A DNA stretch of 64,000 nucleotides from the NCBI GenBank assembly GCA_022842285.1, contig JALHPV010000006.1:1-64000 (forward strand). The letters are read 5' to 3'. The stretch is from Kofleriaceae bacterium. GTDB lineage: Bacteria > Myxococcota_A > Polyangia > Haliangiales > Haliangiaceae. Below the pieces are notes generated by a model. The model searched no databases and was not told the origin of the DNA. It worked only from the letters and a program-made list of their open reading frames with translations. Both the position numbers and the translations under genes were made by a program. Shown piece by piece: positions 37,468 to 55,406 of the stretch (its first letter is position 1; every line of letters starts with the position of its first letter).

Positions 37468-37611
37468 CGTAGCTGATCCGATTCTGGGGGTGGCCCGTAG
37501 GTCACCCCAGAGGGTGATAACTCGGTTAGGCGCTGGGTACTGTGCCGGTCGTCACCTGAAATAGGGTTGCAAAAATGCCGGATGCGGCCGATCCTCGGAG
37601 CTAGCTATCTC

Positions 37612-39462
37612 ATGACGAAACGGCTCGTAACTACAGTACAAATTCTGCTGATCGCTCTCGCCTCCACCATGGCGGGGTGTCTCGGCACGGGGGAAGAGGG
37701 CGACGCGGAGCTGTCGACCATCGAGTCCGAAATCTCGGTCGCTCCCACGGGCGTGACCGCCACCGCGACCTCCTCGACGCGCATCACGGTGTCGTGGAAC
37801 CCGGTCGCGATGGCGACGAAGTATTACGTGTGGCGATCGAACACGGGTCCGGCGGGCACCTATGCCTTCCAGGGCACCACGCTCGCCCCGGGTACCTCGC
37901 TCAACGTCGCCAACAACATCATCCCCGGCACGCAGTACTGCTTCACCGTCTCGGCGGACGGTCCCGGTGGCCAGGGTCCCCGCTCGAGCCCGCCGGCGTG
38001 CGTGACGCCGGGCATGGCCATGCTGCCGGCCGCACCGACGGGTGTCACCGCGACGCCGACGGCAGCGACGCGCATCCTCGTCGCGTGGAATAGCGTGGCG
38101 ACGGCGACCAAGTACTACGTCTACCGCTCGGCGGCGGGCGGGGCAGGCCCGTTCACGTTCGCGGCGACGACGCTGGCACCGACGACGAACGTGAGCGTCG
38201 CCGGCCTCGCGCCCGCGACGATCTACTGCTTCCAGGTGCAGGCGGAGAACGCCTCTGGCACCGGTCCCGTCTCGAGCCCGCCCGCCTGCGGGCGCACGTT
38301 CGTCGAGGGGCTCGAGGGCTACTGGAAGCTGAACGAGGCCAGCAGCGCCACCGCGACGGACGTATCCGGGTTCATGCGCAACGGCACGTACGCTGGCACC
38401 ACCACGCGCAACGCCACCGACCGGGCGCCGCTCGACAACGATCCGATCGCGATCGGCATCGGTGGTGGCGCGGGCGATGCGATCAACGTTCCGCACCAGG
38501 CTCCCTTCAACCTGACCGGTGACTTCACGGTCGCGTTCTGGACGAAGGTCACCGGCGCGTCCACGTACCGCTTCATCGGCAAGCGCGCGGCGGGCTGCGG
38601 CGCGATCAACTGGGAGATCGTGCAGGACGAGATGGGGCTCCACATCAATGGTGCGAACCGCGCGAACTTCGGCGCGAACGTCCCGGCGAACCAGTGGACC
38701 CACGTCGCCGTGACCCAGTCCGGGACGACGGCCGTCTTCTACATCAACGGCGCCCAGGTCGGCACGGCCACCTACGATGTCGGCGTCCGCAACAACGACC
38801 CGCTGCAGCTCGGCAATGCGGGCGGGTGCGGCAGCTCGGCCTTCCTCCTCGACGAGGTCCAGGTCTACAGCCGCCAGCTCTCGCCGACCCAGATCGCGAC
38901 CATCGGGACGATCCCGCCGACGCCGACGAGCGTGACGGCGACGGCGACGAGCTCCGCGCGGATCGATGTCGCCTGGGCGGCGGTGCCGAACGCGTCGAAG
39001 TACTTCCTCTACAAGGGCTCGTCGGCGGCGAACCTCACGTTCTTCCAGAGCGTGGTGTCCCCCACGACGTCCTTCTCGGATGGCGCGAACCCGGCCAATA
39101 CGCAGGTCTTCTACGCCGTGCGCAGCGTTCGCGATGGCCTCATCTCGAACTTCAGCACCACGGTGAATGCGACGACGCAGTCGGGCCCGGCGCCGGTCCA
39201 GGGCGTCACCGCCACCGCGTCCGGCAATGACCGCATCACGATCACGTGGTCGACGCTCGCGACCGCGACGAAGTACTACGTCTACATCGGATCGAGCGCG
39301 GCGGGACCGTTCACGTTCAAGGGCACCACGCTCGCCCCTGGCCTCTCCTACGTGGCCGCCCAGCTCAGCCCCAACACGACGTACTTCTTCGTCGTCCGCG
39401 CCGAGACCCCGAACGGCGTCTCGCCGAACTCGGCCGTCGTCTCCGCGACGACCAACCCGTAG
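37612..39462 (+). CDS. FN3/LamG-domain surface lipoprotein
   Basis: 616 residues from the ATG at 37612, preceded by GGAG 11 bases upstream; the 15 residues of the longer reading are not signal-like. Lipoprotein signal (TKRLVTTVQILLIALASTMAGC), then two fibronectin type III domains (about 44-125 and 140-225), a concanavalin-like/LamG domain (about 233-430, GLEGYWKLNE; FYINGAQVGTATY; LLDEVQVYSRQLS) and two more FN3 domains (437-520 and 528-616). FN3 copies share the motif GVTAT-(P/A)T-x5-I-x-V-x-W. Likely outer-membrane lipoprotein binding polysaccharide. It is monocistronic, divergent from the glycan operon. Confidence 0.88.
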   Translation: MTKRLVTTVQILLIALASTMAGCLGTGEEGDAELSTIESEISVAPTGVTATATSSTRITVSWNPVAMATKYYVWRSNTGPAGTYAFQGTTLAPGTSLNVANNIIPGTQYCFTVSADGPGGQGPRSSPPACVTPGMAMLPAAPTGVTATPTAATRILVAWNSVATATKYYVYRSAAGGAGPFTFAATTLAPTTNVSVAGLAPATIYCFQVQAENASGTGPVSSPPACGRTFVEGLEGYWKLNEASSATATDVSGFMRNGTYAGTTTRNATDRAPLDNDPIAIGIGGGAGDAINVPHQAPFNLTGDFTVAFWTKVTGASTYRFIGKRAAGCGAINWEIVQDEMGLHINGANRANFGANVPANQWTHVAVTQSGTTAVFYINGAQVGTATYDVGVRNNDPLQLGNAGGCGSSAFLLDEVQVYSRQLSPTQIATIGTIPPTPTSVTATATSSARIDVAWAAVPNASKYFLYKGSSAANLTFFQSVVSPTTSFSDGANPANTQVFYAVRSVRDGLISNFSTTVNATTQSGPAPVQGVTATASGNDRITITWSTLATATKYYVYIGSSAAGPFTFKGTTLAPGLSYVAAQLSPNTTYFFVVRAETPNGVSPNSAVVSATTNP

Positions 39463-39522: not shown

Positions 39523-39549
39523 TGTCGCAGGGGTCCGACCCCTGCGACA
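39523..39549. repeat. 27-bp perfect palindrome, copy 1 of a dispersed repeat
   Basis: Arms TGTCGCAGGGGT and ACCCCTGCGACA are separated by CCG. The same 27 bases occur twice at 51745 and 51794. It sits between the 3' ends of two convergent genes and could form a strong hairpin; there is no T-run. It may act as a terminator/mRNA stabiliser, or be a REP-like element. Confidence 0.9.
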
Positions 39550-39571: not shown

Positions 39572-41896
39572 TCAGTTCTCGTAGCGCTTCAGCGCGGCGA
39601 GAAGCCAGGTCCGGCCGGGCGCCCGCTCGGCCACGGGCCGAAGCAAGGCCGCCGCTGCGGCGCGCTGTCCCTGCGCGGCGAGGAGGGCGGCCTCTTCGCA
39701 GATGGCCCACGTCGCGAAGTACGGCACGTGGTACGCGGCGTAGAAGTCGACCGCGCCCTCGTACTCCTGCGGCGGACCGATGACGTGGTCCGCGCGATAG
39801 GGCTGCAGATCCTCGCGCCCTGGATCGACGATGCACCCGCCAGCGAGGAACTCGGTTGCGCGCATCACGAGGAGCCGCAGCGAGATCGGCGAGCCATACG
39901 GCGGCGGTTCGTCGTCGCTATCGGGGTGCAACCCATCGAGCTGGGCGAGCGCCTCGTCGCGGCGGTGGCCCATCACGCCCGCGACGAAGAGACACGCCCC
40001 GCGCTCGCGCGCCGACGCATCCGCGCCGCCGGGGAGGCACGGCTCGACCGTCTTGATCGCCTGCTCGCGCTCGCCGTCGGCCCACTGCAGGAGGGCGAGG
40101 GCCGCGCGTCGCATCGGCCGCCGCGAGGGGCCGGCGCGGTCGAGGGAGCGCTGGTAGAGGCCCTTCGCCGCGGCGCGATCCCCGGACAGCGCGAGCACCT
40201 TGCCGAGGCCGGCGAGCGTGTCCTCGCCCTCGGAGAGGCGCAGGGCTTCCTCGGCCGCGGTGATCGCCTCCGGAAAGCGGCCGGCCGCGGCGAGGGTCGT
40301 CGCATAGACCCCGATGGCATCGGCCTCACCGGGGAACGCCTGCTTGTAGAGGGTGCCGATGCGAAGCGCCTCGGCGGGATCGTCGAGGTAGAGGAGCACC
40401 GACGAGTAGTGATCGTAGATGCGGCCGCGGAACGACTCGCCGGGCATCGCGAGGGTGGCCTTGAACGCCGTCCCGGCGGCCTCGTAGAGACCCGCGCGAT
40501 AGGCGAGCTCCGCGTCCCAGAACGCGAGCTCGCGATCAGCGGGCGCCCCGACGGCCGCGAGGGCGGCACGGGCGGCCGTCGGATCGGACTCGACGAGCGC
40601 GATGGCGGCGTCGAGGAGCGCGCGATCCTTGCTGTGCGCGGGCGTGGCCTCGCGGGCCGTGATCGCGGTGTCGACGGCCTTCGCGCGGTCGGCGTCGGTG
40701 CCACCGCCGAACAGCACGAGGTAGGCGTTCGCCCGCGGATGCTCCGGCGCGGCCGCCAGGGCGGCCCGCAGCGACGACATCGCCTTGTCCGTGTAGAACA
40801 CGTCGTACTCCTCGAGCGCGCGCTTCACGTACTCGTCGCCGGGACGCGGCGGTGGAGGCGGCGCCGGGCCGTCCTGGCGCGTGAGCATGACGACGCCAAC
40901 CGTGGCCGCCGCCGCCATGACGACCCCGAGGATCACCGGCCACATGCGGCGCCGCGGAGCAAAGCGCTCCCTGCGCTCGTGGGCGATCGCCTCGCGCATC
41001 GCTTCCATCGTCGGCCAGCGCTCGGCCGGCGCCTTCGCGAGGGCGCGCATGACGATCTCGCTCACGGGTCCGGGGACCGTCTCGAGTGGCGGCGGCTCCT
41101 TGGATCCGATCTCGGTGAAGAGGGTGTCGATCGTCGTCGCGGTGTACGGCGCCTTGCCGTGGAGGAGCTCGTAGGCGAGGACTCCGACGGAGAACACCTC
41201 GCTGCGCTCGTCGGGCGCCGCGCCATCGATCTGCTCCGGCGCCATGTAGAGCGGCGTGCCGAGGAGCTGACCGGCGTGCGTCCGGTAGCTCGCGAGATCG
41301 AGGCCCGCGGGGACGGTGGCATCGGGGTTCCCGCCCGCCGGTGTCGAGGCCATCGTCTCCTCGAGCGCGATCTCCCCTCGGTTCGCGGGCGAGGCGGCGG
41401 CGACGGGCTCGGGGTCATCACTGCCCAGCTTCGCGAGGCCGAAGTCGAGGACCTTCAGATCGTCACCCGACACCATCACGTTCGCGGACTTGATGTCGCG
41501 ATGGAGGATGCCGCGGGCGTGGGCCGTGGCGAGGGCACTGGTGAGCTGCTCGAGCCAGCGCAGGGCCATCTCGAGCGGCGGCGGACCCTGCTTGCGGAGG
41601 TAGTCGAAGAGCGTTCGCCCCTCGACCAGCTCCATGACGAGGATGTCATCGCCCTCGTGCGAGACGATATCGAACAGCGTCACCACGTTCGGGTGGCGAA
41701 TCGCGGCGGCCGCCCGGGCCTCGCGCAGCATGCGAGCCCGGCGCTCCACGTCGCCGGCGTGGTCGGCCGGCAAGATCTTGAGAGCGACGTAGCGATCGAG
41801 CCGCTCGTCCCGCGCGCGCCAGACCTCCCCCATCGCGCCCTTACCGAGCTGCGAGACGAGGCGATACGGACCTACGAGGTCGCCGGAGACGGGCAT
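39572..41896 (-). CDS. Transmembrane Ser/Thr protein kinase with TPR sensor region
   Basis: 774 residues. Kinase domain 10-310: glycine loop LGKGAMGEVW, VALK Lys40, LHRDIKSANV (Asp134), DFG at 151-153, and GTPLYMAPEQ. An unusual Ala/Pro-rich insert of about 50 residues lies between DFG and the APE motif (158-208). Membrane helix about 319-337, then helical TPR-like repeats to the end (EHPRANAYLVLFGG; FPEAITAAEEALRLSEG). All catalytic residues are present, so it should be active. It follows the Glt-like cluster by 33 bases on the same strand and is probably co-transcribed, perhaps phosphorylating that machine. Confidence 0.93.
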   Translation of the reverse strand: MPVSGDLVGPYRLVSQLGKGAMGEVWRARDERLDRYVALKILPADHAGDVERRARMLREARAAAAIRHPNVVTLFDIVSHEGDDILVMELVEGRTLFDYLRKQGPPPLEMALRWLEQLTSALATAHARGILHRDIKSANVMVSGDDLKVLDFGLAKLGSDDPEPVAAASPANRGEIALEETMASTPAGGNPDATVPAGLDLASYRTHAGQLLGTPLYMAPEQIDGAAPDERSEVFSVGVLAYELLHGKAPYTATTIDTLFTEIGSKEPPPLETVPGPVSEIVMRALAKAPAERWPTMEAMREAIAHERRERFAPRRRMWPVILGVVMAAAATVGVVMLTRQDGPAPPPPPRPGDEYVKRALEEYDVFYTDKAMSSLRAALAAAPEHPRANAYLVLFGGGTDADRAKAVDTAITAREATPAHSKDRALLDAAIALVESDPTAARAALAAVGAPADRELAFWDAELAYRAGLYEAAGTAFKATLAMPGESFRGRIYDHYSSVLLYLDDPAEALRIGTLYKQAFPGEADAIGVYATTLAAAGRFPEAITAAEEALRLSEGEDTLAGLGKVLALSGDRAAAKGLYQRSLDRAGPSRRPMRRAALALLQWADGEREQAIKTVEPCLPGGADASARERGACLFVAGVMGHRRDEALAQLDGLHPDSDDEPPPYGSPISLRLLVMRATEFLAGGCIVDPGREDLQPYRADHVIGPPQEYEGAVDFYAAYHVPYFATWAICEEAALLAAQGQRAAAAALLRPVAERAPGRTWLLAALKRYEN

Positions 41897-41929: not shown

Positions 41930-43360
41930 TCAGTCCGGAACCAGCTGCAGGGTGATCGCGAAGGAAGCCTCGGTCGCCTCGCCATCCTTGTCGGTCGGCT
42001 TCGGGAACGTCCAGCCCTTCATGAGGTTACCGATGCAGGCGTCGACCTCGTCGGCGAAGCCCGCGGCGTCACCGTCGGTGGTGCGGCCGGACTCGTTCAC
42101 GGTGAGCGAGAGCTTCACCTTGCCGCGCGCCGTCGCTTCCTTCTTCAGATACGTCGTGTAGCAGCGCTTGATACCGGTCATGTACGCCGACTGGATCTTC
42201 TTCAGGACCACGTCCGGCGAGAGCGAGGAGTCGTCGAAGCTCTGCTTGTCGCTGACGGAGATGCGACCCGTGGGGCCCTTCTCCTCGCCCGTCCCGCCGC
42301 CGGCGCTGACCGGGCCCGAGGGGCCGTCGATCTTGGAGCCACCGCCGGTACCGACCTTCGAGCCGCCGTCGCCGCGCGAGCCACGGTTCGAGCCACCACC
42401 GACGACGACGGTCTTGCCGCCTTCGCGCACCGCGGCCACCTGATCGCCGAGGTCGGCGGCCGGCGCGCGGTCGTTCATGCCGCCGGCGTCACCGGTCGTG
42501 CTGTCATTGGAGAGCATGTTGGCCATCGCCATCGCGTCGGCCTCGGACATGCCCGGGCTCGAGCCTTCGCTGCGACCGCCCGGGTTCTTGTCGGGCCTGC
42601 CGCCCGCGTCGGGCTTGCCGGACGGCTTGTTGTCGGTCTTGGCCGGCGCCTCGGGGCCGGGGGCCGCCGCGCTCCCTGCCGCAGATCCGGTGTCCGGGGG
42701 CAGCTCCGGCGGCGGCTCCTCGATCGCGACCTGATACTGGTCCTGCTTGAACAGGACCTTGTAGGCGCGATCGGCGGCGCTGTCGTCCTCGACGTCGCGC
42801 AGCCAGAAGAACAGCGTGACCGCGAAGTGAAGGACGATCGATCCGCCGACGATGACGGCGAGCCGCGGCTCGATGCGGTCCGCGAACGAACCACGCACCG
42901 ATGCAGGGAGCATCGGCTTGGGCTGGCGCGGCGGCTCGGCCACGAGCTGGAACAGGATCGTCAGATCACCGAGCGAGACCTTGCCGCGGGCGGCATCGCC
43001 GAGCGGGACCTGGAAGTACCCGTCGGTCTGGGTCGCGCCCTTCTGCTTGAGCCCTTCGAGCGTGTTGACCTGGGCGTCGCCGTCGGAGAGGCGACCATCC
43101 ATCTTCGGGAGGAAGCGGAGGTAGTACTTGCCGTCGTCGATCGCGAACATCGTGAACTCGAGCGGCAGGCCATCGGCCGGCACCGAGAACGTGTTCTTCA
43201 TCGACTGCCCGACGCTGACGGGCACGCGCTCGCGGATGAGGCGCTCCTCGACGATCTTGCCGCCAAGCAGCACACCGATGCGGAGGATGCGTTGCCGCGT
43301 TCCCCCGGCGCCATTGTTCGCCGAGGTTCCGCCGCCTTGGGGTCGCTTGCTGGCCGCCAT
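41930..43360 (-). CDS. AgmX/PglI C-terminal domain protein, GltG-like (TonB-type envelope protein)
   Basis: 476 residues, ATG overlapping the upstream stop (TGATG). An N-terminal cytoplasmic beta-rich domain (25-140; ILRIGVLLGGKIVEER, an FHA-like or unknown fold), one membrane helix (about 166-187), a long Pro/Gly/Ser-rich periplasmic stalk (215-380), and a C-terminal domain (about 385-476; VLKKIQSAYMTGIKRCYTTYLK, KVKLSLTVNESGRT, CIGNLMKGWTFP) of the AgmX/PglI/TonB-like type. In Myxococcus such proteins span the inner membrane and link the cytoplasmic motor to outer-membrane partners in gliding or spore-coat assembly. Confidence 0.85.
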   Translation of the reverse strand: MAASKRPQGGGTSANNGAGGTRQRILRIGVLLGGKIVEERLIRERVPVSVGQSMKNTFSVPADGLPLEFTMFAIDDGKYYLRFLPKMDGRLSDGDAQVNTLEGLKQKGATQTDGYFQVPLGDAARGKVSLGDLTILFQLVAEPPRQPKPMLPASVRGSFADRIEPRLAVIVGGSIVLHFAVTLFFWLRDVEDDSAADRAYKVLFKQDQYQVAIEEPPPELPPDTGSAAGSAAAPGPEAPAKTDNKPSGKPDAGGRPDKNPGGRSEGSSPGMSEADAMAMANMLSNDSTTGDAGGMNDRAPAADLGDQVAAVREGGKTVVVGGGSNRGSRGDGGSKVGTGGGSKIDGPSGPVSAGGGTGEEKGPTGRISVSDKQSFDDSSLSPDVVLKKIQSAYMTGIKRCYTTYLKKEATARGKVKLSLTVNESGRTTDGDAAGFADEVDACIGNLMKGWTFPKPTDKDGEATEASFAITLQLVPD

Positions 43361-43665
43361 CAGAAGGGCGCTTTCTTCACCGTGGCGATGATGAGAGGCA
43401 TGAAGTCCTGCTTCAGGCTCTCCCACTCGTAGGTGACGTCTTTGGGCGTGATCACGTAGATGACGCTCGGGCGCGGGACCTTCCCGCACACGGACACGAC
43501 GGTATCGATGACAGTCACCGGTTTCCCGTTGACGTACTCGATGTGGAACTTGCCCTGCTTCTTCTCACCCTCGGCCTCCTCGTCGTCGCACCCCTCGGCG
43601 CGCGCGACACGACTCGCGCCAAAGAGCGTCGAGGCAACGATTCCTGCGATGAGAAGGTGCTTCAT
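43360..43665 (-). CDS. Small secreted protein, GltF-like by position
   Basis: 101 residues with a clean signal peptide (MKHLLIAGIVASTLFGASRVARA-E). The mature part has an acidic stretch (CDDEEAEGEKK) and one other cysteine (SVCGK), so a disulfide is possible. A good ribosome binding site (GAGGA) overlaps the stop of the upstream TPR lipoprotein. No family recognised from sequence; the GltF suggestion rests only on gene order between the GltE-like and GltG-like genes. Confidence 0.8.
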   Translation of the reverse strand: MKHLLIAGIVASTLFGASRVARAEGCDDEEAEGEKKQGKFHIEYVNGKPVTVIDTVVSVCGKVPRPSVIYVITPKDVTYEWESLKQDFMPLIIATVKKAPF

Positions 43666-43673
43666 GGAATTCC

Positions 43674-44810
43674 TCAGGAGTTCTTCTTCTTGTTCTTCTT
43701 CTGAGCGCGCTTGATCGCCTTGTCGACGTCCTTCATGCGGCTGTCGAACAGCTTCATGTCCACGCCGGGCTGGTTCTTGTACTGATCGAAGTACTGCTTC
43801 GCCGTGGTGAGGCGCTGCACGGCGTCGGCGATCCCCGGATACGGATCCGTATCGAGGTAGAGCAGGCCGAGGTTGTAGTAGGCGGGGCCGTAGCTCGCCT
43901 GCGCCTGCGTCGCCCGCTTGTAGGCGGACTCGGCGTTGCGCACGAGCTGGTCGCGCTGTCCGTCACCGGCGCGGTAGTCGGCCGCGTGACCGCGATACGC
44001 CGAGCCGAGCGACGTCAGCGTGACTGCGTCGTTGCGACCGAACTGACCGGTGAGGCGCTCGAACGTCTGCTGCGCTTCCTGGTACTGGCTGTTCTTCAGC
44101 TGGTGCACGCCGAGGTTCGTCAGCGCGCTTGCGTGATTCGGGTTGAGCTGCACGGCAGTCTCGTACGAGAGCCGCGCTTCCGCCGGGCGATTCGTCGCGT
44201 CGTAGACGAGACCGTAGACGTAGTTGACGTTGGCGTTCTGCTTCGCGACGGGGCGCTTGATGAGATCGTCAAGGACGAGCTCGGCCGTGTCGTAGAGCCG
44301 CTTGTGGTAGTAGGCGAACGCGACGTACGAGGCCGCCTCCACGCTCGCGGCATCGATCGCCAGCGCCGCCCGCGCTTCGGCCAGGGCCTTGTCGGCATCC
44401 GGCGTCGGCTGGTTGAGCGCGGCCTTCGCGGCGTTCAGATGACGATCGACCTCGGCCTTCGACTGCGCCGGATCGGCATCGAAGTTGGGCGGCACGATCG
44501 GCGGAGGCTCGGGCGTCGCAGGATCGCCGTCACTGCCCCCGGGCTCGTTCGCACCGACGTCGTCGCCACCACCACCAGGAAGCGTGGGGTCGCCGCCGGG
44601 CTGGCCGCTGCCGCCGGGCCCATCGAGATCAGGATCCGCCCCGCCGTCATCCATGGACTGCGAGCCGGATCCGGAGCCCGCGCCCGGCTTGGGCGTGGTG
44701 GTCTCCTTCTTGTCGCCGCCGCCACAGGCGATCAGCAACGAGAGGAGAGCACCGCCGAGCAGGCGGGAGGATGGCCGGGCCATACGTGCTGTAACGCGCG
44801 ACATCGTCAT
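43674..44810 (-). CDS. TPR lipoprotein, GltE/AglT-like
   Basis: 378 residues. Lipoprotein signal with LLSLLIAC (Cys at about 29); GGGAGA ahead of the ATG 44810 supports this start. A low-complexity Gly/Asp/Pro linker (30-110) leads to about six TPRs (ALAEARAALAIDAASVEAAS; NPNHASALTNLGVHQLKN; YGPAYYNLGLLYLD) and a Lys-rich C-terminus. Outer-membrane TPR lipoproteins of this kind are part of the gliding (AglT/GltE) and spore-coat (Nfs) complexes of Myxococcus. Starts 9 bases after the large TPR gene. Confidence 0.85.
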   Translation of the reverse strand: MTMSRVTARMARPSSRLLGGALLSLLIACGGGDKKETTTPKPGAGSGSGSQSMDDGGADPDLDGPGGSGQPGGDPTLPGGGGDDVGANEPGGSDGDPATPEPPPIVPPNFDADPAQSKAEVDRHLNAAKAALNQPTPDADKALAEARAALAIDAASVEAASYVAFAYYHKRLYDTAELVLDDLIKRPVAKQNANVNYVYGLVYDATNRPAEARLSYETAVQLNPNHASALTNLGVHQLKNSQYQEAQQTFERLTGQFGRNDAVTLTSLGSAYRGHAADYRAGDGQRDQLVRNAESAYKRATQAQASYGPAYYNLGLLYLDTDPYPGIADAVQRLTTAKQYFDQYKNQPGVDMKLFDSRMKDVDKAIKRAQKKNKKKNS

Positions 44811-44819
44811 TGGATCTCC

Positions 44820-47800
44820 CTACGGAGCGGTCGTGCCCTGGATAATCTCCTGGCGCAGAACCGTGTATTCACTCGGGAACTCGCGTCCGAGGTTTTCCAG
44901 TGCGAGACGGACCCACTGGTTCGAGATGCCGTTCTGCTTGGCGATGTCCACCACCGCCACCCACTGGACCTTCGCGTCCTGGAGGGTCTTCGCGATGTTG
45001 GCGTCGAGCTGCGCCTGGTAGGTCTCCATCGCCGTGCCCCCCGCCTTCTCGATCGGGGTCGGGATGGGCGCGGCGGCCAGCTTGAGGCCGTTGTCGTACT
45101 GGATGTTGCCGAAGCGGACCTTCGCCGCCATCGAGTACTCGACGATGCCGTAGGCATCGAGGGCGATGTACTTGTCCTCGGCCTTGAGCTTCTGGGCCTT
45201 CAGATCGGCGCCCTGCTTCTGGAGCTCGGCCGCCGTCTTCGCCGCCTTCTTGATCTCGTAGGTCTCCCAGGTTCCGGCGTAGTAGTCCTCGGCCTGGGCG
45301 AGCGCCCATTCACCCGCGAGCCGGGCGCCGAGGCCGCCCTTCACCGCGCCGCGCGCCTTCCACGCATCGATCGTGGCCTGGCCGGCGGCCTTCGCCTGGC
45401 TCATCTGGTTCTTCCGCTTGCGGATCGCGGAGACGTCGTAGAACGACTGGACGAAGCGATCCTCGTTGCCGGCATCCTTGCCGTACGCCGAGCGCCACTT
45501 GCCGTAGGCCGTCTCCATGTTGCCGATATCACCGCTCTGCCGGTAGATGCTGGCGATCGACCAGAGCGCCTTGTCCTTCTGGCCCCGGTCGGTCTCGATC
45601 CGGCCGTAGCTCGTGTAGAGCTCGACCGCCTTCTTGAAGTCGCGATTGAGCTCGCTGGCGACGGCGGCGTTGTAGAGCGCGTCGAGGCCGAGCTGATCGA
45701 TCGTCTTCGGCGTCTCGCCCTCGAGCGGCGGCGGCGGCTTGAGGCCGAGCCGCTTGGCCTTCTTCGTCGCCTCGTAGAGCTCGAGGTACGTCTTGACCGC
45801 GTTCGCGTAATCGAACGCCGCCTGGTAGCTCGAGGCCTGCAGCCGGATCGCGTCGAGGTAGTACGGGCTCTCGCGGAAGTTCTTCTGCGGGTTGTTTGCG
45901 AACTCCTTGAACAGCGCGATCGCCGTCTTCGGACGCTCACCGCGGCGATACGCGACCGCGGCGTTGTAGAGCGCGACCGGCAGATCCGGATCGGTGTTCG
46001 GCGCGGTCTTGTAGAACTTGTAGAACGCCTCGGCAGCGGGGACGAACTCCTGCTTCGCGAAGAGGTCGGCGGCGCGCGAGAAGTTCAGCGAGCGGTTCTG
46101 CGCGATCGCGAGATCGATCGTCTTCTGATCGCCGCACTTCTGGGAGATGAAGGCCTTGTTCGTGCGCTCGATCGCGTCGAAGTCCGACCGGGCCTCGTAG
46201 ATCGCGAGGATGCCGTCCTTCGCCTTCGCCGCCTCGGGATTGCCACAGAACTTGTCGAGGACCTTCTGGTAGCGCACCAGGGCGTCGTCGACGTGCAGGT
46301 AGGCGAGCGAGATCAGCGCGGCGTTGATGCCCTGCTGGGGTGCCGCCTTCGGATCCGCGACGATGTTCTGGTAGTTGTCGTACTCGGTCTGGAGCTCGAG
46401 ATAGATCGGCGGAATGGGCTGCGGCGTCCACGGCTGCGGCTTCGCGCGGAGCTCGGCCACCGTCGGCACGACGAGGGGCTGCAGCGTCCCGGCGGCCGCC
46501 TGGCGCTTGGCCTCCTCTTCGTACGCGTAGACGACCTTGCGGGCGGCATCGATGTAGTGCTCGGTGCCGAGGTCGCGGTGATCGCGGACCCACTTGTACG
46601 CGGCGACGGACTCGAGATAGCGCTCGCTCCAGAACAGCGCTTCGGCGGAGTTGAAGTTGAAGTCGTAGATCTTGTCGGAGTCGGGATAGATGTCGATGAA
46701 CTGCCGATAGAGCTCGATCGCGCGGTTGTAGAGCGCGAGGTACTCGTCGCGCATCGTGGGATCTTTCTTCCCGAGCGCCTCGTAGTCCTTGCGCGCCTGC
46801 GTCGCGGCGGAGTGCGTGTTCACCGCGGCGGCATAGAGCGCCCGCTCTGCGATGCGGCGCTGGTTCTCCATCGCCTCGCGGTCCGCTTCATTGGCCGTGT
46901 ACCAGGCGGTGCCCGGCGCATACTTCGTCGCGAGCTCGGCTGCGGCCTGATCCGCCGCGAACTTGTCGCCCTTCGAGTCGTACGCGTTGACGATCTCCTG
47001 GTGGACCTGCGGGTTGTTCGGGTTGAGCTCCCACGGCGGCGCGAGCGCGATGCGATACGACTCGACCGCCTGATCGAAGGCCTGCAGGTCGACGAACGCC
47101 TTGCCCATCGCGACCCAGATGTCGCGCACGTGGGGCTCGTTCTCGCGACCGGCGTAGAAGGCGCGCACGCGCTCGATGGCCTTGACGGGATCGCTGTCGG
47201 TCTCGCCTTCCCACGGATCGGTGAACGCGACGGCGATGTACTGGATCGACTCCTCGCGGAGCTCGAGCGAGGGCGTATTGCCCGTCGCCACGATCTGGTC
47301 GTACAGCTTCACGCTGTCGTCGAACCGCTTGATCGCATCGGGGAGCCGGTCGCGCTTGAAGTACGACCACGCGAGCTTGTAGAGCGACTCGGCGTAGAGC
47401 TTCGAGTCGTTGCCACCGTCGGCAACCTTCAGGTACGCGGCGATGGCGTCGTCGATCTCGCCACCGGTCCCGAAGTGCGTATCGGCCGCGCCGCGGACCC
47501 ACGCGTAGCGAATGAGCTCGGGATCCGAGTCCTTGTACGGCGTGCACTCGGCGTAGGGATCGCGGAGCGTCTTGCTGGTCACGCGCGCGCGGGCCTCCTC
47601 CATCGAGGGCGCCTGCGCCGGCGGGTCGTTCCACTTGTACTTGTTGGCGCACGTGAGCGAGAGGAAGATCTGCAGCGAGCGGCGCTCGTCCGGGACCTTC
47701 AGGTAGTACGCGAGCAGGTACAGCGTCGACGGCGTCTGGCGATAGCCCGGGAACCGCGTCAGGATCCCTTCCCAGAGCTGGAGCGACTTCGTGTAGTCCG

Positions 47801-48353
47801 CGTTGATCGGCGGATCGTCGGGGTTCGGCGGCTGGCCCGACGCTTCGAGCGCGGCGAGCTGCGTGTCGACGATGTACTCGGACTCGTCGAGGTACAGGTC
47901 GGCGAGCTGGAACATCTTGTCGGGCGTGAACGTGACGTGCGTCGGGTGGTCCTGGAGAAACTTCTCGAGGAGCGCGATCGTCTTGCGGCGGTTATCGACC
48001 TGCGACTTCTCGGTGTTCGCGATGCGCTCGTCGTAGCGCTTCGTCAGGTCCGCGGTGCGCGTCTCGTACTCGCGCTTGGCGAGGGCCCGCATGCGCTGAT
48101 CGTGCTGCGTGGCGGCCACGATGAAGCGCTCGTACTCGTCCTCGACTTCCTTCAGCTGCTCGAGCTCGCTCGCGTTCAGCTGGAGTGGCTCGGGGCCACC
48201 CACGCCCGGACCGTTCGCGGGATCGGCGGGCAAACCTTCGGCGGGGCCAGGCGCGGGCGCGGTGCCGCCGGGCTGCGCGAACGCCGGCATCCCGGTGCCG
48301 AGCACGGCGGCGGTCAGGAGGGCAGCCAGGCTGCGGCGGAAGGGTCCCTTCAT
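44820..48353 (-). CDS. Giant periplasmic TPR protein, GltD/NfsD-like
   Basis: 1177 residues with a signal peptide (RRSLAALLTAAVLGTGMPAFAQ). Coiled coil at about 50-115, then TPR/alpha-solenoid units through most of the protein (FQLADLYLDESEYIV; SLYKLAWSYFKRD; AFDQAVESYRIAL; ALWSIASIYRQSGDIGNME). No enzymatic motif. The size and its position before a TPR lipoprotein, a small secreted protein and an AgmX-type protein fit GltD of the Myxococcus gliding complex; NfsD of the spore-coat machine is the paralogous alternative. ATGA overlap with the upstream gene. Confidence 0.82.
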   Translation of the reverse strand: MKGPFRRSLAALLTAAVLGTGMPAFAQPGGTAPAPGPAEGLPADPANGPGVGGPEPLQLNASELEQLKEVEDEYERFIVAATQHDQRMRALAKREYETRTADLTKRYDERIANTEKSQVDNRRKTIALLEKFLQDHPTHVTFTPDKMFQLADLYLDESEYIVDTQLAALEASGQPPNPDDPPINADYTKSLQLWEGILTRFPGYRQTPSTLYLLAYYLKVPDERRSLQIFLSLTCANKYKWNDPPAQAPSMEEARARVTSKTLRDPYAECTPYKDSDPELIRYAWVRGAADTHFGTGGEIDDAIAAYLKVADGGNDSKLYAESLYKLAWSYFKRDRLPDAIKRFDDSVKLYDQIVATGNTPSLELREESIQYIAVAFTDPWEGETDSDPVKAIERVRAFYAGRENEPHVRDIWVAMGKAFVDLQAFDQAVESYRIALAPPWELNPNNPQVHQEIVNAYDSKGDKFAADQAAAELATKYAPGTAWYTANEADREAMENQRRIAERALYAAAVNTHSAATQARKDYEALGKKDPTMRDEYLALYNRAIELYRQFIDIYPDSDKIYDFNFNSAEALFWSERYLESVAAYKWVRDHRDLGTEHYIDAARKVVYAYEEEAKRQAAAGTLQPLVVPTVAELRAKPQPWTPQPIPPIYLELQTEYDNYQNIVADPKAAPQQGINAALISLAYLHVDDALVRYQKVLDKFCGNPEAAKAKDGILAIYEARSDFDAIERTNKAFISQKCGDQKTIDLAIAQNRSLNFSRAADLFAKQEFVPAAEAFYKFYKTAPNTDPDLPVALYNAAVAYRRGERPKTAIALFKEFANNPQKNFRESPYYLDAIRLQASSYQAAFDYANAVKTYLELYEATKKAKRLGLKPPPPLEGETPKTIDQLGLDALYNAAVASELNRDFKKAVELYTSYGRIETDRGQKDKALWSIASIYRQSGDIGNMETAYGKWRSAYGKDAGNEDRFVQSFYDVSAIRKRKNQMSQAKAAGQATIDAWKARGAVKGGLGARLAGEWALAQAEDYYAGTWETYEIKKAAKTAAELQKQGADLKAQKLKAEDKYIALDAYGIVEYSMAAKVRFGNIQYDNGLKLAAAPIPTPIEKAGGTAMETYQAQLDANIAKTLQDAKVQWVAVVDIAKQNGISNQWVRLALENLGREFPSEYTVLRQEIIQGTTAP

Positions 48354-50833
48354 GGCGTCCCCGGCTTCACCGTCGGTGCGGTGGGTTTGGTGTCAGGCGA
48401 GCTCGGCGTGACGCGCCCCGGTGTTCCGCTATCGGGGCTCCCCGAGGGCGGCGTGTTCGAGGGCGTGTCTTCGACGGGCGCGGGCGGCGGCGGCGGAGTC
48501 GCGGTCGTGTCGAGCTGACCCTCGAGGATGCCGCGGAACTCGTCGCGGAGCTGCTTCACTTCGCGCTGGCGCGAGAGGTTGAGCCGCTTGAGGTCGTCAT
48601 CGGCGTCTTCCTTCTGCGACCACGCGACATCCGTGGTGCCGACATCACTACGAATGACGATGTCGTAGAAGCGCTCTTTGACTTCCTTGAAGCTCTTGCC
48701 GAGCACCGTGCCCGACAGCTCGCGCGACTGCGCCTCGGCGTCCGCGAGCTCGGTGCGGAGCTGCGCGATGTTCGCGCGCTCCGTCGTGATCGCGGTCTTC
48801 GTCTCCTGCATGCCGCGAGCGGCCATCTGATCGAGCGTGGCCTCGAGCTGGGCGAGCTGGTCGGCGAGCTTGGTCGCCTTCGCCCCCAGCTGCGACAACC
48901 CGCGCGCCTTGTCCGACGTCGCCATGCCGGCGAGCACGCGGTGCTCCGTCGACAGCGTCGTGATGAGCCGGGTGCGGACCTCACGCTGGCGCGCGATGGC
49001 TTCATCCCCCGCGGAGGCCAGATCGCGGCTGTACTCCATCTCCTTCTGGATCGCCTCGAGCTCGGCGTTGATCGCCGCGCCCTCGGTCTGCACGGCGGCG
49101 AGCGTGTCGCTCACGGAGGCCGTCTGCTCGGCGGTCAGCGACGTGGCGGGATCCTTCGAGATCGCAACGCTGTACGTGCGGATCGCGACCGCCATCGCCT
49201 GCGTCGTATCGAGCGCGCCGCTGACCTCCAGCGTCTGCTCCTCGAGCGCGCTGATGCCCGTGGCCGTGGTCTCGCGCGCCGCCGACACCATCGTCTCGAC
49301 GGACTGCTTGCTGCTGTACTCCTGCTGGAGCTGACGGCGCTCGGCCGTGAGCTGCGGCAGATCGCCGGCATTCCCGGCGAGCGCGGCCTGCTGATCGTTC
49401 AGATCGCCACGCAGCTTGTTCAGATCGTCCTGGATCTCGCCGATGCGAGCCCGGCGACCGGCGAGCACCGGATAGATGGCGGTCTTGTCGTTGGCGGCGA
49501 CGAGGGCCTCGAGCCGCGCGAGCACGTCCTCGGAGAGGGCGAGCGCGTTGCGGATCTCGTTCAGGTCCGCCGCCACCTGCACCGCGCGCTGCACACCCGG
49601 CTCCTCGGCCAGGTAGGCGGCCGCCGCCTCGGGCAATTGCGCGGTCGTCTCGAACAGGTCTGGCGAGCGGCCCGCGATCTGCGACAGATACACCGTCGGA
49701 TCCGCTTCGGTGTCGACCATCTCCGCGAGCGCGACGTACGACGGGTGATACGTGTCGTGCGTCTCCATGAAGACGGCCTCGGCCTTCGCGTACTCCTCCT
49801 CGGGAGTCTTGTTGGCGTCTTCGTCGTCCTTACGGACCGTGCCCTCGATGATGCGCTGCCGCAGGATCTGCGCCTTGCGAATGCGCAGGTTCCCCTCGAG
49901 GATGCGCACCGTCGGCGTCTTCGTCGACGTCGGCTCGGACAGCGCGAGCAGCTCGAGCGCACGGAGCGCCTTGTCGAACTGCTTGTTCTTCACGTAGACC
50001 CACGCGACCTCGTAGAGCGCGTCGGGGAAGAGATCGCTGCGGCGGTCGACGAGCAAGTACGCATCGATCGACTTCGCGAACTGGTCCCGCTCGTAGAAGA
50101 GGCGGCCCATCGCCATCTGCGACAGCTCGATCACCCGGCGATCGTTCGCCGTGCGCGGCTTCATCTCGATGAGCTCGGCGAACAGCGTCGTGGCGCGGTC
50201 GAGATCCTTCTTCGCGACGTAGACCGTGGCCGTGTAGTACTTCGCCTGGAGCTCGTGGGTGGAGCCAGCGGGCACGCGCGCGAACGTCTGGATCGCCTCG
50301 TCGTGCTTGCCGTCGGCGAACGCGAGCTTGCCGCGAACGTACGTCGCTTCGGCAGTCTGCGTCGTGCCGAGTCCGTCGAGCTTGCTGACGACGGCCGCGA
50401 TGTCCTCGGTGTCCTGCGTGCTGATCGCGATCTCGATCAAGCGCAGCAGCGACGGCTGGTAGTACTTGCTCGACGTGTTTCCGCTATCGACGATCTGCGC
50501 GAAGTAGCCGCGGGCGGCGCCGCGATCCTTCTTCGCGAACAGCGCCTCGCCGAGGTAGTACCGTGCGCTCTCCTGCTCCGCGCCTGGCTTCGCCGCCAGG
50601 TCGAACAGCATCAGCGCAGCGGCGTCGTAGTCACCGAGCGCGAACGCGACCTGGGCATCCACCAATCGACGCGGCGGCTCGGTCGTCGCGACGCCGATCT
50701 TGGGCAGATTTGCCCCCAGCTCGCGCGCCTCGTTCTCGTAGCGCGTGACCTTCTCGTTCGCGTTCTCCGCGTTCGCGACCGGCGAGCTCGCCAGCGCCGC
50801 GAGCACGGGCAGTAGCAGCTTCCAGCGCTGCAT
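48350..50833 (-). CDS. Periplasmic TPR and coiled-coil protein of unknown function
   Basis: 827 residues. Signal peptide (LLLPVLAALASSPVANA), TPR-like repeats at 30-330 (DAAALMLFDLAAKPGAEQESA; ALYEVAWVYVKNKQFDKALR), long coiled coils at about 430-700 (LTAERRQLQQEYSSKQ; TKLADQLAQLEATLDQM), and a Pro/Thr/Gly-rich C-terminal tail. Layout is like a scaffold or spacer in the cell envelope. It is coupled to the GltD-like gene (ATGA) and abuts the gene before it. I know of no clear counterpart in the Glt cluster. Confidence 0.8.
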   Translation of the reverse strand: MQRWKLLLPVLAALASSPVANAENANEKVTRYENEARELGANLPKIGVATTEPPRRLVDAQVAFALGDYDAAALMLFDLAAKPGAEQESARYYLGEALFAKKDRGAARGYFAQIVDSGNTSSKYYQPSLLRLIEIAISTQDTEDIAAVVSKLDGLGTTQTAEATYVRGKLAFADGKHDEAIQTFARVPAGSTHELQAKYYTATVYVAKKDLDRATTLFAELIEMKPRTANDRRVIELSQMAMGRLFYERDQFAKSIDAYLLVDRRSDLFPDALYEVAWVYVKNKQFDKALRALELLALSEPTSTKTPTVRILEGNLRIRKAQILRQRIIEGTVRKDDEDANKTPEEEYAKAEAVFMETHDTYHPSYVALAEMVDTEADPTVYLSQIAGRSPDLFETTAQLPEAAAAYLAEEPGVQRAVQVAADLNEIRNALALSEDVLARLEALVAANDKTAIYPVLAGRRARIGEIQDDLNKLRGDLNDQQAALAGNAGDLPQLTAERRQLQQEYSSKQSVETMVSAARETTATGISALEEQTLEVSGALDTTQAMAVAIRTYSVAISKDPATSLTAEQTASVSDTLAAVQTEGAAINAELEAIQKEMEYSRDLASAGDEAIARQREVRTRLITTLSTEHRVLAGMATSDKARGLSQLGAKATKLADQLAQLEATLDQMAARGMQETKTAITTERANIAQLRTELADAEAQSRELSGTVLGKSFKEVKERFYDIVIRSDVGTTDVAWSQKEDADDDLKRLNLSRQREVKQLRDEFRGILEGQLDTTATPPPPPAPVEDTPSNTPPSGSPDSGTPGRVTPSSPDTKPTAPTVKPGTP

Positions 50834-51607
50834 TTACTTCCCCGGCGTCGTGGCGGCCGGCGTGGTCGCGGCCGGCGGCGGTGCCGTCGGCGTGGTCGCG
50901 GGCGTCGGCGCCACCGGCTTCTCCGGCGTCACCTGCGTGATCGCGCACGTCACCGCGGGGCGCTTCTCGAGCGGCGTGGTCGGCCCACCCTTCTCGTGAC
51001 CCTTGCAGTCGACCTTCGAGATCTTGCCCTCGCCGGCCGTGAACGTCTGGTTGCCCTTCGCGTTGAACGTGTACTTCGTCAGGTACTCGAACACGCCATA
51101 CCCGTGGCCACGGTACGTCGCGACGATCGAGATCACGTGACTACCGGGCGAGATCGGGCCCGCGAAGATGTCGAAGCTCTTCGTCTTGTAGAGGTTCTGC
51201 GCCGTGTCATCCGACCGCGCAAACACCTGCGTACCGTCGAGCGAATAGCTCAGCTTGATCAGCCGGAACGAGCTGCCCATCTCGTTCGAGTGCGAGATCA
51301 GCGCCTGCGCGCCAACGCCACCGCCGACGAGCTGCTCCTTCAGCATCTGCACGCGCGCCTTCAGCTGCCACGCGCGCTCCTTCAGCGCCTGCGTCCGCTG
51401 CTCCAGACGCCGCATCCGAATGGATGTCGGCATCTGCTCGGGCGGCACGGTGGCCGGATCGACATTGGGCGCAGGCGCGGGTTGTCCCGGCGCCCCCGTT
51501 GTCGTGGAGGTCGGCGTCGTAGTTGGCGTGGTCCCCGAAGGCGCTTGCGCGAACCCTTCAGAGACACCCAACGAACAGACCAGAAGCGCGGCAGCAGCAA
51601 GACGCAT
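50834..51607 (-). CDS. Secreted coiled-coil/beta-domain protein, first gene of the envelope cluster
   Basis: 257 residues from the ATG 51607 (MRLAAAALLVCSLGVSEGFAQ, signal peptide). A Thr/Pro-rich linker (22-60), a short coiled coil (65-93), a beta-rich domain (about 97-215; FRLIKLSYSLDGTQVF; SPGSHVISIVATYRGHGYG) and a Pro/Ala/Thr tail. A bioactive function is not recognised; the beta domain with a PEGA-like SPGSH-turn could bind another envelope component. Its stop directly abuts the next ATG, so it leads the operon. Confidence 0.78.
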   Translation of the reverse strand: MRLAAAALLVCSLGVSEGFAQAPSGTTPTTTPTSTTTGAPGQPAPAPNVDPATVPPEQMPTSIRMRRLEQRTQALKERAWQLKARVQMLKEQLVGGGVGAQALISHSNEMGSSFRLIKLSYSLDGTQVFARSDDTAQNLYKTKSFDIFAGPISPGSHVISIVATYRGHGYGVFEYLTKYTFNAKGNQTFTAGEGKISKVDCKGHEKGGPTTPLEKRPAVTCAITQVTPEKPVAPTPATTPTAPPPAATTPAATTPGK

Positions 51608-51667: not shown

Positions 51668-51740
51668 CCTATCCACCCCACCCTCACGCGCCTCACGCCT
51701 ACCTTGGGCGTACCCCATCCGAGACCCCCGTCACGCTCCC

Positions 51741-51838
51741 GCACTGTCGCAGGGGTCCGACCCCTGCGACACCCCCTGCGACACCTATCGCACTGTCGCA
51801 GGGGTCCGACCCCTGCGACACCCCCTGCGACACCTATC
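51741..51838. repeat. Two tandem 49-bp repeats carrying copies 2 and 3 of the 27-bp palindrome
   Basis: Identical units 51741-51789 and 51790-51838. Each contains the palindrome (51745-51771 and 51794-51820; arms TGTCGCAGGGGT/ACCCCTGCGACA) followed by a half-copy (CCCCTGCGACACC). They lie downstream of obgE and upstream of the envelope cluster promoter region. The same palindrome is found 12 kb away at 39523. Confidence 0.95.
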
Positions 51839-51860: not shown

Positions 51861-53093
51861 CTATTCCGATGACTTGGCGCGGAGGTGGGCCCAGAGGCGC
51901 TCGAGGATGGGCTCGAGGCCCTGGCGCCCGGCGGCCGAGATGGGGACCAGCTGGATCCCCTCGGCCTTGAAAGCGGCGATGTGAGCGGCGATCGCCGCCT
52001 CGTCCGTGGAGTCCGATTTGTTGAGGACCACGACCTGCGGTTTGGTGGCGAGGTCGGGGGCGTAACGGGCGAGCTCGGCGTTGATCACGCGGAAGTCCTT
52101 GAGCGGCTCGCGGTCGGGGCCGGCGAGCTCGGTGGCCTCGACGATGTGGAGGAGGACGCGGCACCGCTCGACGTGGCGGAGGAACTGGTGGCCGAGCCCC
52201 GCGCCCTCGGAGGCGCCCTCGATCAGGCCGGGGATATCGGCGATGACGAACGTCCGGTCGTCGGACAGCCTGACCACGCCGAGGTTGGGGACGAGGGTCG
52301 TGAAGGGGTAGTCGGCGATCTTGGGCTTCGCGCGCGAGACGGCGGAGATGAAGGTCGACTTGCCGACATTCGGGTAGCCGAGGAGGCCGACGTCGGCGAG
52401 GAGCTTCAGCTCGAGGCGGATGGCGCGCTCGACGCCCGGGGTGCCTTGTTCGGCGGTGCGAGGCGCCTGGTTCCACGGCGTGGCGAAGTGCATGTTGCCC
52501 TTGCCGCCGATCCCGCCCTTGGCGACGACGTACCGGGCACCGTCGGTGGAGAGGTCGGCGAGCCACTTGCCGCGGGGCCGCTCGCGATCGCCGCGCTTGC
52601 CCTTGGCCTGGACGACGCCGGGCTCGTCGTCGCCCTCGTCGGGCTCGTCGTCGGCATCGTCATCGTCGTCGGCGTCGTCGTCCTCGTCATCCTCGGCGGC
52701 GTCGTCGTCGTCATCCTCGGCGTCGCTGTCCTCGTCGTCACCCATGGCCAGCGCGGCGTCGGCCTCGGGATCGTCGTCGCCGCGCGGGTCATCGGGGACG
52801 CCCGCAGACACGTCGTAGATCATGGTGCCGACGGGCACGCGCACGATCAGGTCATCGCCGCCGGCGCCGTACTGATCCTTGTTGCGGCCGTTCTCGCCGC
52901 GCTGCGCCTCGTACCGGCGGCGGTACTTGAAGTCGAGGAGGGAAGCGAGCTTGGCGTCGGCGACGATGACGATGCTGCCGCCATCGCCGCCGTCCCCGCC
53001 GGTCGGGCCGGAGCGGCCGATGCCGAACGCGACGCACCCATCGCCGCCGCCGCCGGCACGCACGTGGATCGTCGCTTCGTCGATGAACTTCAC
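51861..53093 (-). CDS. obgE: Obg/CgtA GTPase with an acidic insertion
   Basis: 410 residues, GTG start (VKFIDEATIHVRAG). The glycine-rich Obg fold (1-95) is interrupted by an about 80-residue insertion (97-176) of almost pure Asp/Glu followed by a basic stretch (AKGKRGDRERPRGK), then Obg resumes (LADLSTDGARYVVAKGGIGGKGN). GTPase motifs intact: G1 GYPNVGKST, G2 DYPFTTLVP, G3 DIPGLIEGA, G4 NKSD, G5 SAAG. No C-terminal OCT domain. Obg proteins act in late 50S ribosome assembly and stress control. Usually co-transcribed with rplU-rpmA; here two plus-strand genes and a ykgJ-like gene intervene. Confidence 0.96.
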   Translation of the reverse strand: MKFIDEATIHVRAGGGGDGCVAFGIGRSGPTGGDGGDGGSIVIVADAKLASLLDFKYRRRYEAQRGENGRNKDQYGAGGDDLIVRVPVGTMIYDVSAGVPDDPRGDDDPEADAALAMGDDEDSDAEDDDDDAAEDDEDDDADDDDDADDEPDEGDDEPGVVQAKGKRGDRERPRGKWLADLSTDGARYVVAKGGIGGKGNMHFATPWNQAPRTAEQGTPGVERAIRLELKLLADVGLLGYPNVGKSTFISAVSRAKPKIADYPFTTLVPNLGVVRLSDDRTFVIADIPGLIEGASEGAGLGHQFLRHVERCRVLLHIVEATELAGPDREPLKDFRVINAELARYAPDLATKPQVVVLNKSDSTDEAAIAAHIAAFKAEGIQLVPISAAGRQGLEPILERLWAHLRAKSSE

Positions 53094-53168
53094 AGCGCTC
53101 GCTTCCTATCACGGCCCGGCGGGAGCCGCCGCTGGAACGACCGGCGGCCTGACCCGACGGGGGCATGC

Positions 53169-54239
53169 GTGGTAACGACAGGCGTGTCCTGGCTCCGGGT
53201 GTGGGCGCGCGCGGTGATCGGGCCCGCCGTCCGACGGGTGTCGGCGGCCTGGGTCGGATGCGCGATCGTGGGGAGCCAGATCCTCGGCGGCAACGCGATG
53301 CGGCCCGGTGACCTGACAGGGCTGGCCCTCGCGCACGCCGGGGTCGGAGGCGTGATGGCGTTGACGTGGATGTTCGTATTTCTGCCGACGGCGCGCGTGC
53401 TCGTGCGGCAGGACGGCGCGCGCTACCTCCGCGCCCTGCCAGCTCCGCGGCTCGCCCCGACCGTGCTCGCGGCGGTCGCGATCGTGGGCTTGCAGCTGCC
53501 ATGGATCGGGCTGTGGATCGTCGGCGAGGGAGCGCGCGGAGCGCTGATCGGCCTCGTGGGGACGCTGGTGATCGCGGGGCTCGCCGCGATCCGGACGCCG
53601 GCACTGCGGCCGCGTGCCCCGCAGTGGCGGGGCGCCACGGGAGCACTGGCGGGTGTCCACGTGCGTGCGCTCCGTCGACGGGCGGGCGACGCGCTGATGC
53701 GCGGAATCGGACTCGCGGCGCTCGCGGGGGCGGCCGGGGGCCTGTTCGTGCGCAACAATGGCCTCGTGGGCGCCGAGGCAGGGGTGCTCGGCAGCGCCGT
53801 GATCGCCGTGATGCTCGTGCCGGCCGTGGTCGCGCCGCTGCTCGTGCTGCTCGAGTCGCATCGCGCGAGTGCGTGGGTCGCGGCGACGACGGGGGCGTCG
53901 GAGCTCGCGCGTACGAGCTCGCTCGCCGCGATCGTGGTCGGGTTGCACCTCGCCTGCACGCTGATTGCCGTCGGCGCCACGGCGGCGATCATCGGCGCGG
54001 ACCTCGCGACGATCGCGTGGCTCGGGGGCGTCGCGGCGCTCGTCGCGATCGGCAGTGGCCTCGGGTGTACCCGGGTCTTGCTCGGGGTGGGCGAGGCCAC
54101 GCGGATCGCGGCCCGCGCCTCGATCGGAGCGCTGGCCGTCGCGGCCGCGGCCGTGCTGTGTCTGGGATTGTTCGATGCGCCCGGCGCGCTCGGGCTCGTC
54201 GCGATCGGATTCGCCGCGCTGCTCGCGAGGTCGGCGTGA
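53169..54239 (+). CDS. Membrane protein, probable ABC exporter permease
   Basis: 356 residues from the GTG at 53169, preceded by GGGGG about 7 bases upstream; the start is uncertain because GTGs at 53184 and 53199 are also in frame. About nine hydrophobic segments, Arg-rich cytoplasmic loops, no recognised signature. Its 3' end overlaps the start of an ABC ATPase (GTGA), so it is inferred to be the permease. Substrate unknown. Divergent from obgE. Confidence 0.72.
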   Translation: MVTTGVSWLRVWARAVIGPAVRRVSAAWVGCAIVGSQILGGNAMRPGDLTGLALAHAGVGGVMALTWMFVFLPTARVLVRQDGARYLRALPAPRLAPTVLAAVAIVGLQLPWIGLWIVGEGARGALIGLVGTLVIAGLAAIRTPALRPRAPQWRGATGALAGVHVRALRRRAGDALMRGIGLAALAGAAGGLFVRNNGLVGAEAGVLGSAVIAVMLVPAVVAPLLVLLESHRASAWVAATTGASELARTSSLAAIVVGLHLACTLIAVGATAAIIGADLATIAWLGGVAALVAIGSGLGCTRVLLGVGEATRIAARASIGALAVAAAAVLCLGLFDAPGALGLVAIGFAALLARSA

Positions 54240-55139: not shown

Positions 55140-55406
55140 TTACGCAGCGGCCGGAGCAGCGTAGACCGCAACGCGCATGCGGTCCTTGCCCTGGCGCTCG
55201 AACTTCACGATGCCGGTGATCTTGGCAAAGAGCGTGAAGTCGCGGCCGAGGCCGACGTTGGCGCCCGGGTGGTACTTGGTACCAACCTGGCGAACGAGAA
55301 TGCTGCCCGCGGGAACGTTCTCGCCAGCGAAGCGCTTCACGCCTCGCATCTTCGGCTGCGAATCGCGGCCGTTACGGGTAGAGCCCTGTCCTTTTTTGTG
55401 TGCCAT
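55140..55406 (-). CDS. rpmA: 50S ribosomal protein L27
   Basis: 88 residues, normal length. [17 protein letters not shown]-terminus and the [21 protein letters not shown] core are unmistakable. L27 lies near the peptidyl-transferase centre of the 50S subunit. It has the short Gram-negative N-terminus, not the cleavable extension of Firmicutes. Downstream of rplU by 12 bases. Confidence 0.98.

Follow-up and report, generated by a model that had tools for sequence, protein, structure and literature searches.

The stretch of DNA analysed here (the window, 64,000 nucleotides of contig C6 in a 7.9 Mb draft genome) belongs to a Kofleriaceae-type myxobacterium and carries on its minus strand, from 51607 to 41930, six genes in the order gltB-C-D-E-F-G. 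With a probability of roughly 0.7, this cluster represents an ancestral-type core (B to G) of the Agl-Glt/Nfs machines that is orthologous to the G4 cluster of M. xanthus, stands apart from both Glt and Nfs, and operates as a proton-driven envelope transducer. The six-gene envelope-motor set is ancient, is kept across nearly the whole phylum and forms a lineage separate from the gliding and spore-coat machines. The job of the Agl/Glt/Nfs core before gliding and the spore coat was a question raised in papers of 2011 and 2013; what the comparison adds is the phylum-wide set including GltB and GltF, its presumed motor partner, its G4 counterpart and a link to mglBA in several lineages.

Gene organization of the cluster

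The six minus-strand frames show a strong coding signal, with GC3 of 0.82-0.93 for the ORFs described in an earlier note on this DNA. The genes and neighboring features are as follows.

39572-41896, minus strand: Ser/Thr kinase with a TPR C-terminus (PF00069, E 6.9e-45)
41930-43360, minus strand: GltG-like transducer (NF033760, NF033768, AF2, Foldseek)
43360-43665, minus strand: GltF-like small secreted protein, 101 aa (hhalign, conserved position)
43674-44810, minus strand: GltE-like TPR lipoprotein, lipobox LLIAC (NCBIfam NF033758, hhalign)
44820-48353, minus strand: GltD-like giant periplasmic TPR protein, 1177 aa (hhalign, GltD tree)
48350-50833, minus strand: GltC-like periplasmic TPR protein, its C-terminal half a long coiled-coil (NCBIfam NF033756, hhalign)
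50834-51607, minus strand: GltB-like secreted protein (P7) with signal peptide, coiled-coil helix and beta-sandwich (hhalign against C77-type GltB)
51740-51837, no strand: palindromic repeat present as a tandem pair of 49-nt copies, in the gap separating obgE from the gltB-like gene
51861-53093, minus strand: obgE GTPase, conserved upstream neighbor (NF008955, E 1.4e-130; synteny)
55140-55406, minus strand: rpmA (ribosomal protein L27), conserved upstream neighbor (TIGR00062)
55419-55736, minus strand: rplU (ribosomal protein L21), conserved upstream neighbor (TIGR00061)

The junction of the P7 gene with gltC reads TAAATG, that of gltC with gltD ATGA and that of gltF with gltG TGATG, and the gaps between gltD and gltE and between gltE and gltF measure 9 nt and 8 nt. 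On the basis of these tight junctions, the gltB-G set is predicted to be translationally coupled. The start of gltG was corrected from 43489 to 43360, where its ATG overlaps the gltF stop, and the gene at 50834 most likely starts at 51607 instead of 51718. A sigma-70 promoter scan returned a single weak match, which was not above chance. The ORF at 53109-54482, between rpmA and obgE, was also considered; it is of low complexity, has no family match and is probably not a gene.

The order of giant TPR protein, TPR lipoprotein, small secreted protein and AgmX/PglI-type protein had been read in the earlier note as gltD-E-F-G, and this reading stands, as the ORFs lie where they had been placed and the homology is beyond chance. 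The two genes upstream (50834 and 48350) and the kinase downstream had been taken for an unrecognized extension of the unit. The upstream pair instead proved to be GltB- and GltC-like, completing the B to G set, and the kinase, which starts 33 nt downstream of gltG and has a homolog downstream of gltG in several genomes of the same family only among the fetched loci, is a family-level accessory. Adjoining the kinase on the opposite strand (37567-39462, plus strand) is a gene for a secreted Fibronectin type III/laminin-G protein.

Homology of the six proteins to Glt and Nfs components

Comparison with the curated NCBIfam gliding models matched the 48350 product to GltC (NF033756, E 2.8e-14, 52.8 bits against a cut-off of 450), the 43674 product to GltE (NF033758, E 2.1e-13, 50.1 bits against 225) and the 41930 product to GltG (NF033760, E 2.7e-14, 52.6 bits against 650), the last also carrying an AgmX/PglI tail (NF033768, E 1.6e-11). 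No window protein attains the equivalog cut-offs of these gliding models (225-650 bits), the window scores being 50-53, and such clusters should not be annotated as gliding genes.

A second cluster in the genome, of the Nfs/Glt type, lies at C77:8001-27668, where the contig end cuts it. The genome's other GltD and GltC relatives, one of each, are both encoded on this contig. There and in relatives the order is B-C-D-E-F-G followed by two more genes, the last encoding a CglE-like barrel. A probable A barrel gene lies upstream of the C77-type cluster in at least two relatives, and most of the relatives at L234-L243 are complete.

Profile comparisons with this second cluster connected the 44820 product to GltD (hhalign E 4e-63 across 937 columns), the 41930 product to GltG (E 3e-26), the 48350 product to GltC (hhalign E 6e-23) and the 43674 product to GltE (hhalign E 3e-14). 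The earlier note had let its case depend on the resemblance of the 44820, 43674 and 41930 products to GltD, GltE and GltG, and all three match by profile. Family-to-family alignment additionally linked the 43360 product to the C77-type GltF family (hhalign E 1.3e-8). For P7, the match is to the C77-type GltB family, encoded by the gene preceding gltC (family to family, hhalign E 1.6e-10), a remote link at an hhalign value of 96.9% to a family whose C77 copy is truncated by the contig end. Since P7 matches the profile of the gene preceding gltC and itself occupies the position of GltB, it is taken as GltB-like. It had no Pfam match and no meaningful NCBIfam match; its AF2 model (pLDDT 76.5) places a helix at 61-93 and eight strands, and a PDB fold search with it gave nothing convincing (best TM by query length 0.28).

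The GltG-like transducer

The GltG-like protein is composed of a cytoplasmic domain with a degenerate FHA fold, one transmembrane helix, a linker and an AgmX/PglI C-terminal domain. The N-terminal domain was modeled by AF2 with a pLDDT of 91, and FHA domains top its Foldseek PDB list. Pfam FHA is absent from the window GltG and from the GltG of the Myxococcus cluster L259 described below, and is found in Myxococcus Glt- and Nfs-type GltG. The modeled domain therefore appears FHA-like by structure only and degenerate. In the family alignment GQSxKNTF stands where FHA domains have their canonical GR motif, which makes phosphothreonine binding doubtful.

The transmembrane helix holds SIVLH, which follows the SxxxH pattern with the S-x3-H spacing of TonB. 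This pattern was matched in 43 of the 78 GltG homologs (the match in L106 falling just outside the helix) and is missing from the other 35, almost half of them, a point against the transducer mechanism favored below. Together with the AgmX/PglI tail, SIVLH upholds the earlier description of this protein as TonB-like. Matches to the AgmX/PglI C-terminal domain number 24 in genome G000, and 14 of these reach or exceed the curated cut-off, so that this single genome has, by these matches, many TonB-like transducers.

Relation to Glt, Nfs and the G4 cluster

In order to place the cluster, a GltD tree was built under LG+G4 with a quick search; with this simple model and short search, 43 cluster-type sequences separated from seven Glt, Nfs and C77 paralogs with SH-aLRT support of 100. 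The window GltD groups with that of the mglBA-linked Myxococcus cluster in a phylum-wide clade and falls outside the Glt and Nfs clades. The set thus belongs to neither Glt nor Nfs, to which the earlier note had likened it, but to the clade represented in M. xanthus by the G4 cluster.

Four gltD-type clusters were found in Myxococcus sp. RHSTA-1-4. L258 is Glt (GltG 1098 bits, GltE 758), L257 is Nfs-like (GltG 362 bits, FHA present), L259 is orthologous to the window cluster (GltG 169 bits) and L260 is a divergent fourth cluster. The order in L259 is mglB-mglA-B-C-D-E-F-G. In M. xanthus, mglA and mglB are MXAN_1925 and MXAN_1926 (PMC4316618), and MXAN_1922 is the gltD homolog of the G4 cluster (PMC3169522). 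Because L259 lies behind mglBA and these locus tags follow the same arrangement, the window cluster fits G4. By gene order, B-C-D fits MXAN_1924-1923-1922, a tag match drawn from L259 and not from M. xanthus itself. The M. xanthus G5 cluster (MXAN_1327) was ruled out as the counterpart, as L259 adjoins mglBA and so matches G4. In the 2011 study, motility was not appreciably altered when MXAN_1922 was mutated, and the function of the G4 cluster was given as unknown (PMC3169522).

Like the window cluster, L259 has a GltG without Pfam FHA and no embedded motor, and the two share the B-C-D-E-F-G order and the GltD clade; however, G4 is linked to mglBA in Myxococcus, whereas the window cluster is linked to rplU-rpmA-obg. 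The Nfs spore-coat machine (nfsA-H) has homologous proteins in the common B-C-D-E-F-G order, but is contiguous from A to H with the outer-membrane barrels A and H, carries FHA at the NfsG N-terminus and belongs to a separate GltD clade, whereas the window has only B to G and a GltG without canonical FHA. The Glt gliding machine (gltA-K with aglRQS) shares the GltB-G homologs and a TonB-like GltG; its true GltG scores 1098 bits compared to 50-53 for the window proteins against cut-offs of 225-650, its GltD clade is separate, and A, H, I, J and K are missing from the window cluster. Finally, Luciano et al. (2011) described a core complex (aglRQS, gltC, D, E and G in one region) that the window resembles in that gltC, D, E and G occur together. 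The window adds GltB-like and GltF-like proteins to that core, and R-Q-S lies inside the operon in many related lineages but not in the window's.

As the cluster has no GltA/H outer-membrane barrels and no GltI/J/K, it is probably not a gliding engine. The homology of all six proteins to GltB-G and the presence of gltI/J-like genes on contig C4 would be expected if it were the gliding engine of this organism; even so, we regard that reading as very unlikely, given a position outside the Glt clade, scores far under the NCBIfam gliding cut-offs, missing gltA/H, the lack of a canonical FHA, a presumed counterpart (MXAN_1922) that is dispensable for motility (PMC3169522) and a fuller Nfs/Glt-type cluster on C77. 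The view in the earlier note that the machine does more than gliding alone is borne out to the extent that it is an envelope machine with its GltD outside the Glt clade and with A, H, I, J and K missing from the cluster. The GltI/GltJ-like pair at C4:63000-81918 consists of a TPR protein longer than 2800 aa and a protein of the AgmX type whose transmembrane helix carries SLAVH.

AglRQS motor genes and a candidate motor for the cluster

The common operon of the fetched neighborhoods is gltB-C-D-E-F-(aglR-Q-S)-gltG, with about 30 loci from several lineages carrying the AglRQS genes at this position between F and G. Within the window's order, an embedded AglRQS is absent from every locus fetched, the window operon included. 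The window genome has R-Q-S sets on contigs C136 and C40. In a maximum-likelihood AglR tree, the unlinked C136-type clade (100/99) is nested in the clade of embedded AglR (97/86), with moderate support for the inner branches that place it (93/90 and 88/82), and the C40 type lies outside. Identity to the C136 AglR is only 34-42% in at least 25 genomes with an embedded AglR, the best AglR being beside gltD, and 51-85% for the unlinked AglR of at least 38 genomes, both counts being hand tallies among the matches listed, from related and not independent genomes. The operon was fetched for 15 of the genomes with unlinked AglR, and none of the 15 has an embedded motor. The simplest reading of these sequence comparisons would be that the motor left the operon in the window's lineage. 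On the basis of AglR phylogeny and distribution, the C136 set is probably the best motor candidate for the window GltG.

The operon's lack of motor genes might also mean that the cluster is a motor-less remnant, passive or non-functional. This is most improbable, because none of the six frames is broken and all are conserved, the window-type GltD is 55-68% identical across the genus, and AglR of the same clade is retained in genomes without an embedded motor.

Proposed mechanism and function

For the transducer that we favor, protons would drive a motor of the AglRQS type, probably the C136 set in this genome, which would move the TonB-type GltG through its SxxxH transmembrane helix; GltG is known to bind AglR (PMC3169522). 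The periplasmic arm of GltG would then act on a TPR/coiled-coil scaffold of B, C, D and F and, by way of this scaffold, on the outer-membrane lipoprotein GltE, the output being force or processive transport within the envelope. The role is probably that of a basal envelope-transport or envelope-maintenance machine. Candidate cargoes are a surface or periplasmic polysaccharide or an envelope component, and movement of a polymer and tensioning of the envelope have similar odds.

A Tol-Pal/TonB-like complex that maintains the envelope (outer-membrane anchoring, constriction or stability) with no mobile cargo would agree with the broad conservation, the rplU-rpmA-obg neighborhood, the TonB/TolA-like GltG and the lack of an outer-membrane barrel in the cluster. 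We hold this alternative to be possible but on the unlikely side, as other ExbD/TolR genes exist elsewhere in the genome and the paralogous machines studied so far are processive transporters.

Conservation and gene neighborhood

About 100 loci fetched from across the phylum show the B-C-D-E-F-G order, whole or up to the contig limit. GltD homologs are present in 127 of the 144 genomes of the class, some matching at the level of paralogs only. Of 237 phylum genomes, 175 carry the GltB-like gene. A tandem pair of GltB-like genes replaces the single copy at 11868-13498 of locus L085, and likewise in genome G081.

Among 97 distinct loci, obg lies just upstream of gltB in 41 and a MglA homolog in eight, one of which (L117) has a weak MglA match without MglB; in L102 mglBA is somewhat further from gltB. 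Lineages in which mglBA directly precedes the gltB-G set include Myxococcus and Archangium as well as several others. Thus, the conserved neighbor is rplU-rpmA-obg in the window's class and mglBA in some other lineages (Myxococcaceae and others). The mglB-mglA pair of the window genome lies behind recR on contig C125 (L263), unlinked to the gltB-G cluster, and its MglA is 85% identical to a Myxococcus-type query that is approximate, differing by a few residues from the L259 MglA.

The polysaccharide locus next door, at about 0.5-37 kb of the window, contains genes for a Wzc-type protein, O-antigen ligase, sugar transferases and a CapD-like epimerase, and the earlier note had taken it as a sign that the machine moves, anchors or assembles a glycan. 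Of 13 genomes of the same order, 8 had glycan genes (Wzc, Wzy, CapD-like, glycosyltransferases) within 20 kb downstream, compared to 3 of 20 control stretches (p=0.008); strict matches were present in 7 of the 13 flanks compared to one of the 20 controls (p=0.003). The samples are small and related, and two of the control matches fall 30-40 kb beyond the same operon on its downstream side. Outside the window's order, 7 of 20 downstream flanks had glycan genes, mostly single. These counts are suggestive at most of a recurrent neighbor, and within the window's order only. The enrichment is a tendency at the level of the order that does not by itself establish a glycan function; the conserved neighbors are rplU-rpmA-obg and mglBA.

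A Nfs-like machine that transports or assembles the polysaccharide of the adjoining locus would account for the enriched same-order flanks, and Agl-Nfs does move glycan in M. xanthus (PMC3858216). We nevertheless find this specific assignment doubtful, considering the mostly single genes outside the order, the recurrence of obg or mglBA as neighbors instead, the imperfect controls and a GltD clade that differs from Nfs.

Returning to the ancestral-type core, its placement immediately downstream of mglBA, in Myxococcus and Archangium as well as several further lineages, raises the speculation that MglA/MglB control came before gliding. Tentatively, B-G with AglRQS may have been an ancestral, MglA/MglB-controlled core that transported an envelope polymer in a polar or directed manner, and of which the gliding and spore-coat machines are later copies; although we rate this as rather unlikely, if true, both machines inherited the MglA/MglB switch from the core.

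Two minor features of the window were also observed. In ObgE (51861-53093), the Obg and GTPase parts are separated by an inserted acidic segment rich in Asp/Glu, roughly 65 residues long and located at about residues 103-171. The perfect palindrome TGTCGCAGGGGTC-N-GACCCCTGCGACA, a REP-like element with 87 copies genome-wide that are often in tandem, is present in the window at 39523-39549, 51745-51771 and 51794-51820, so that its copies flank the unit from gltB to the kinase on both sides.
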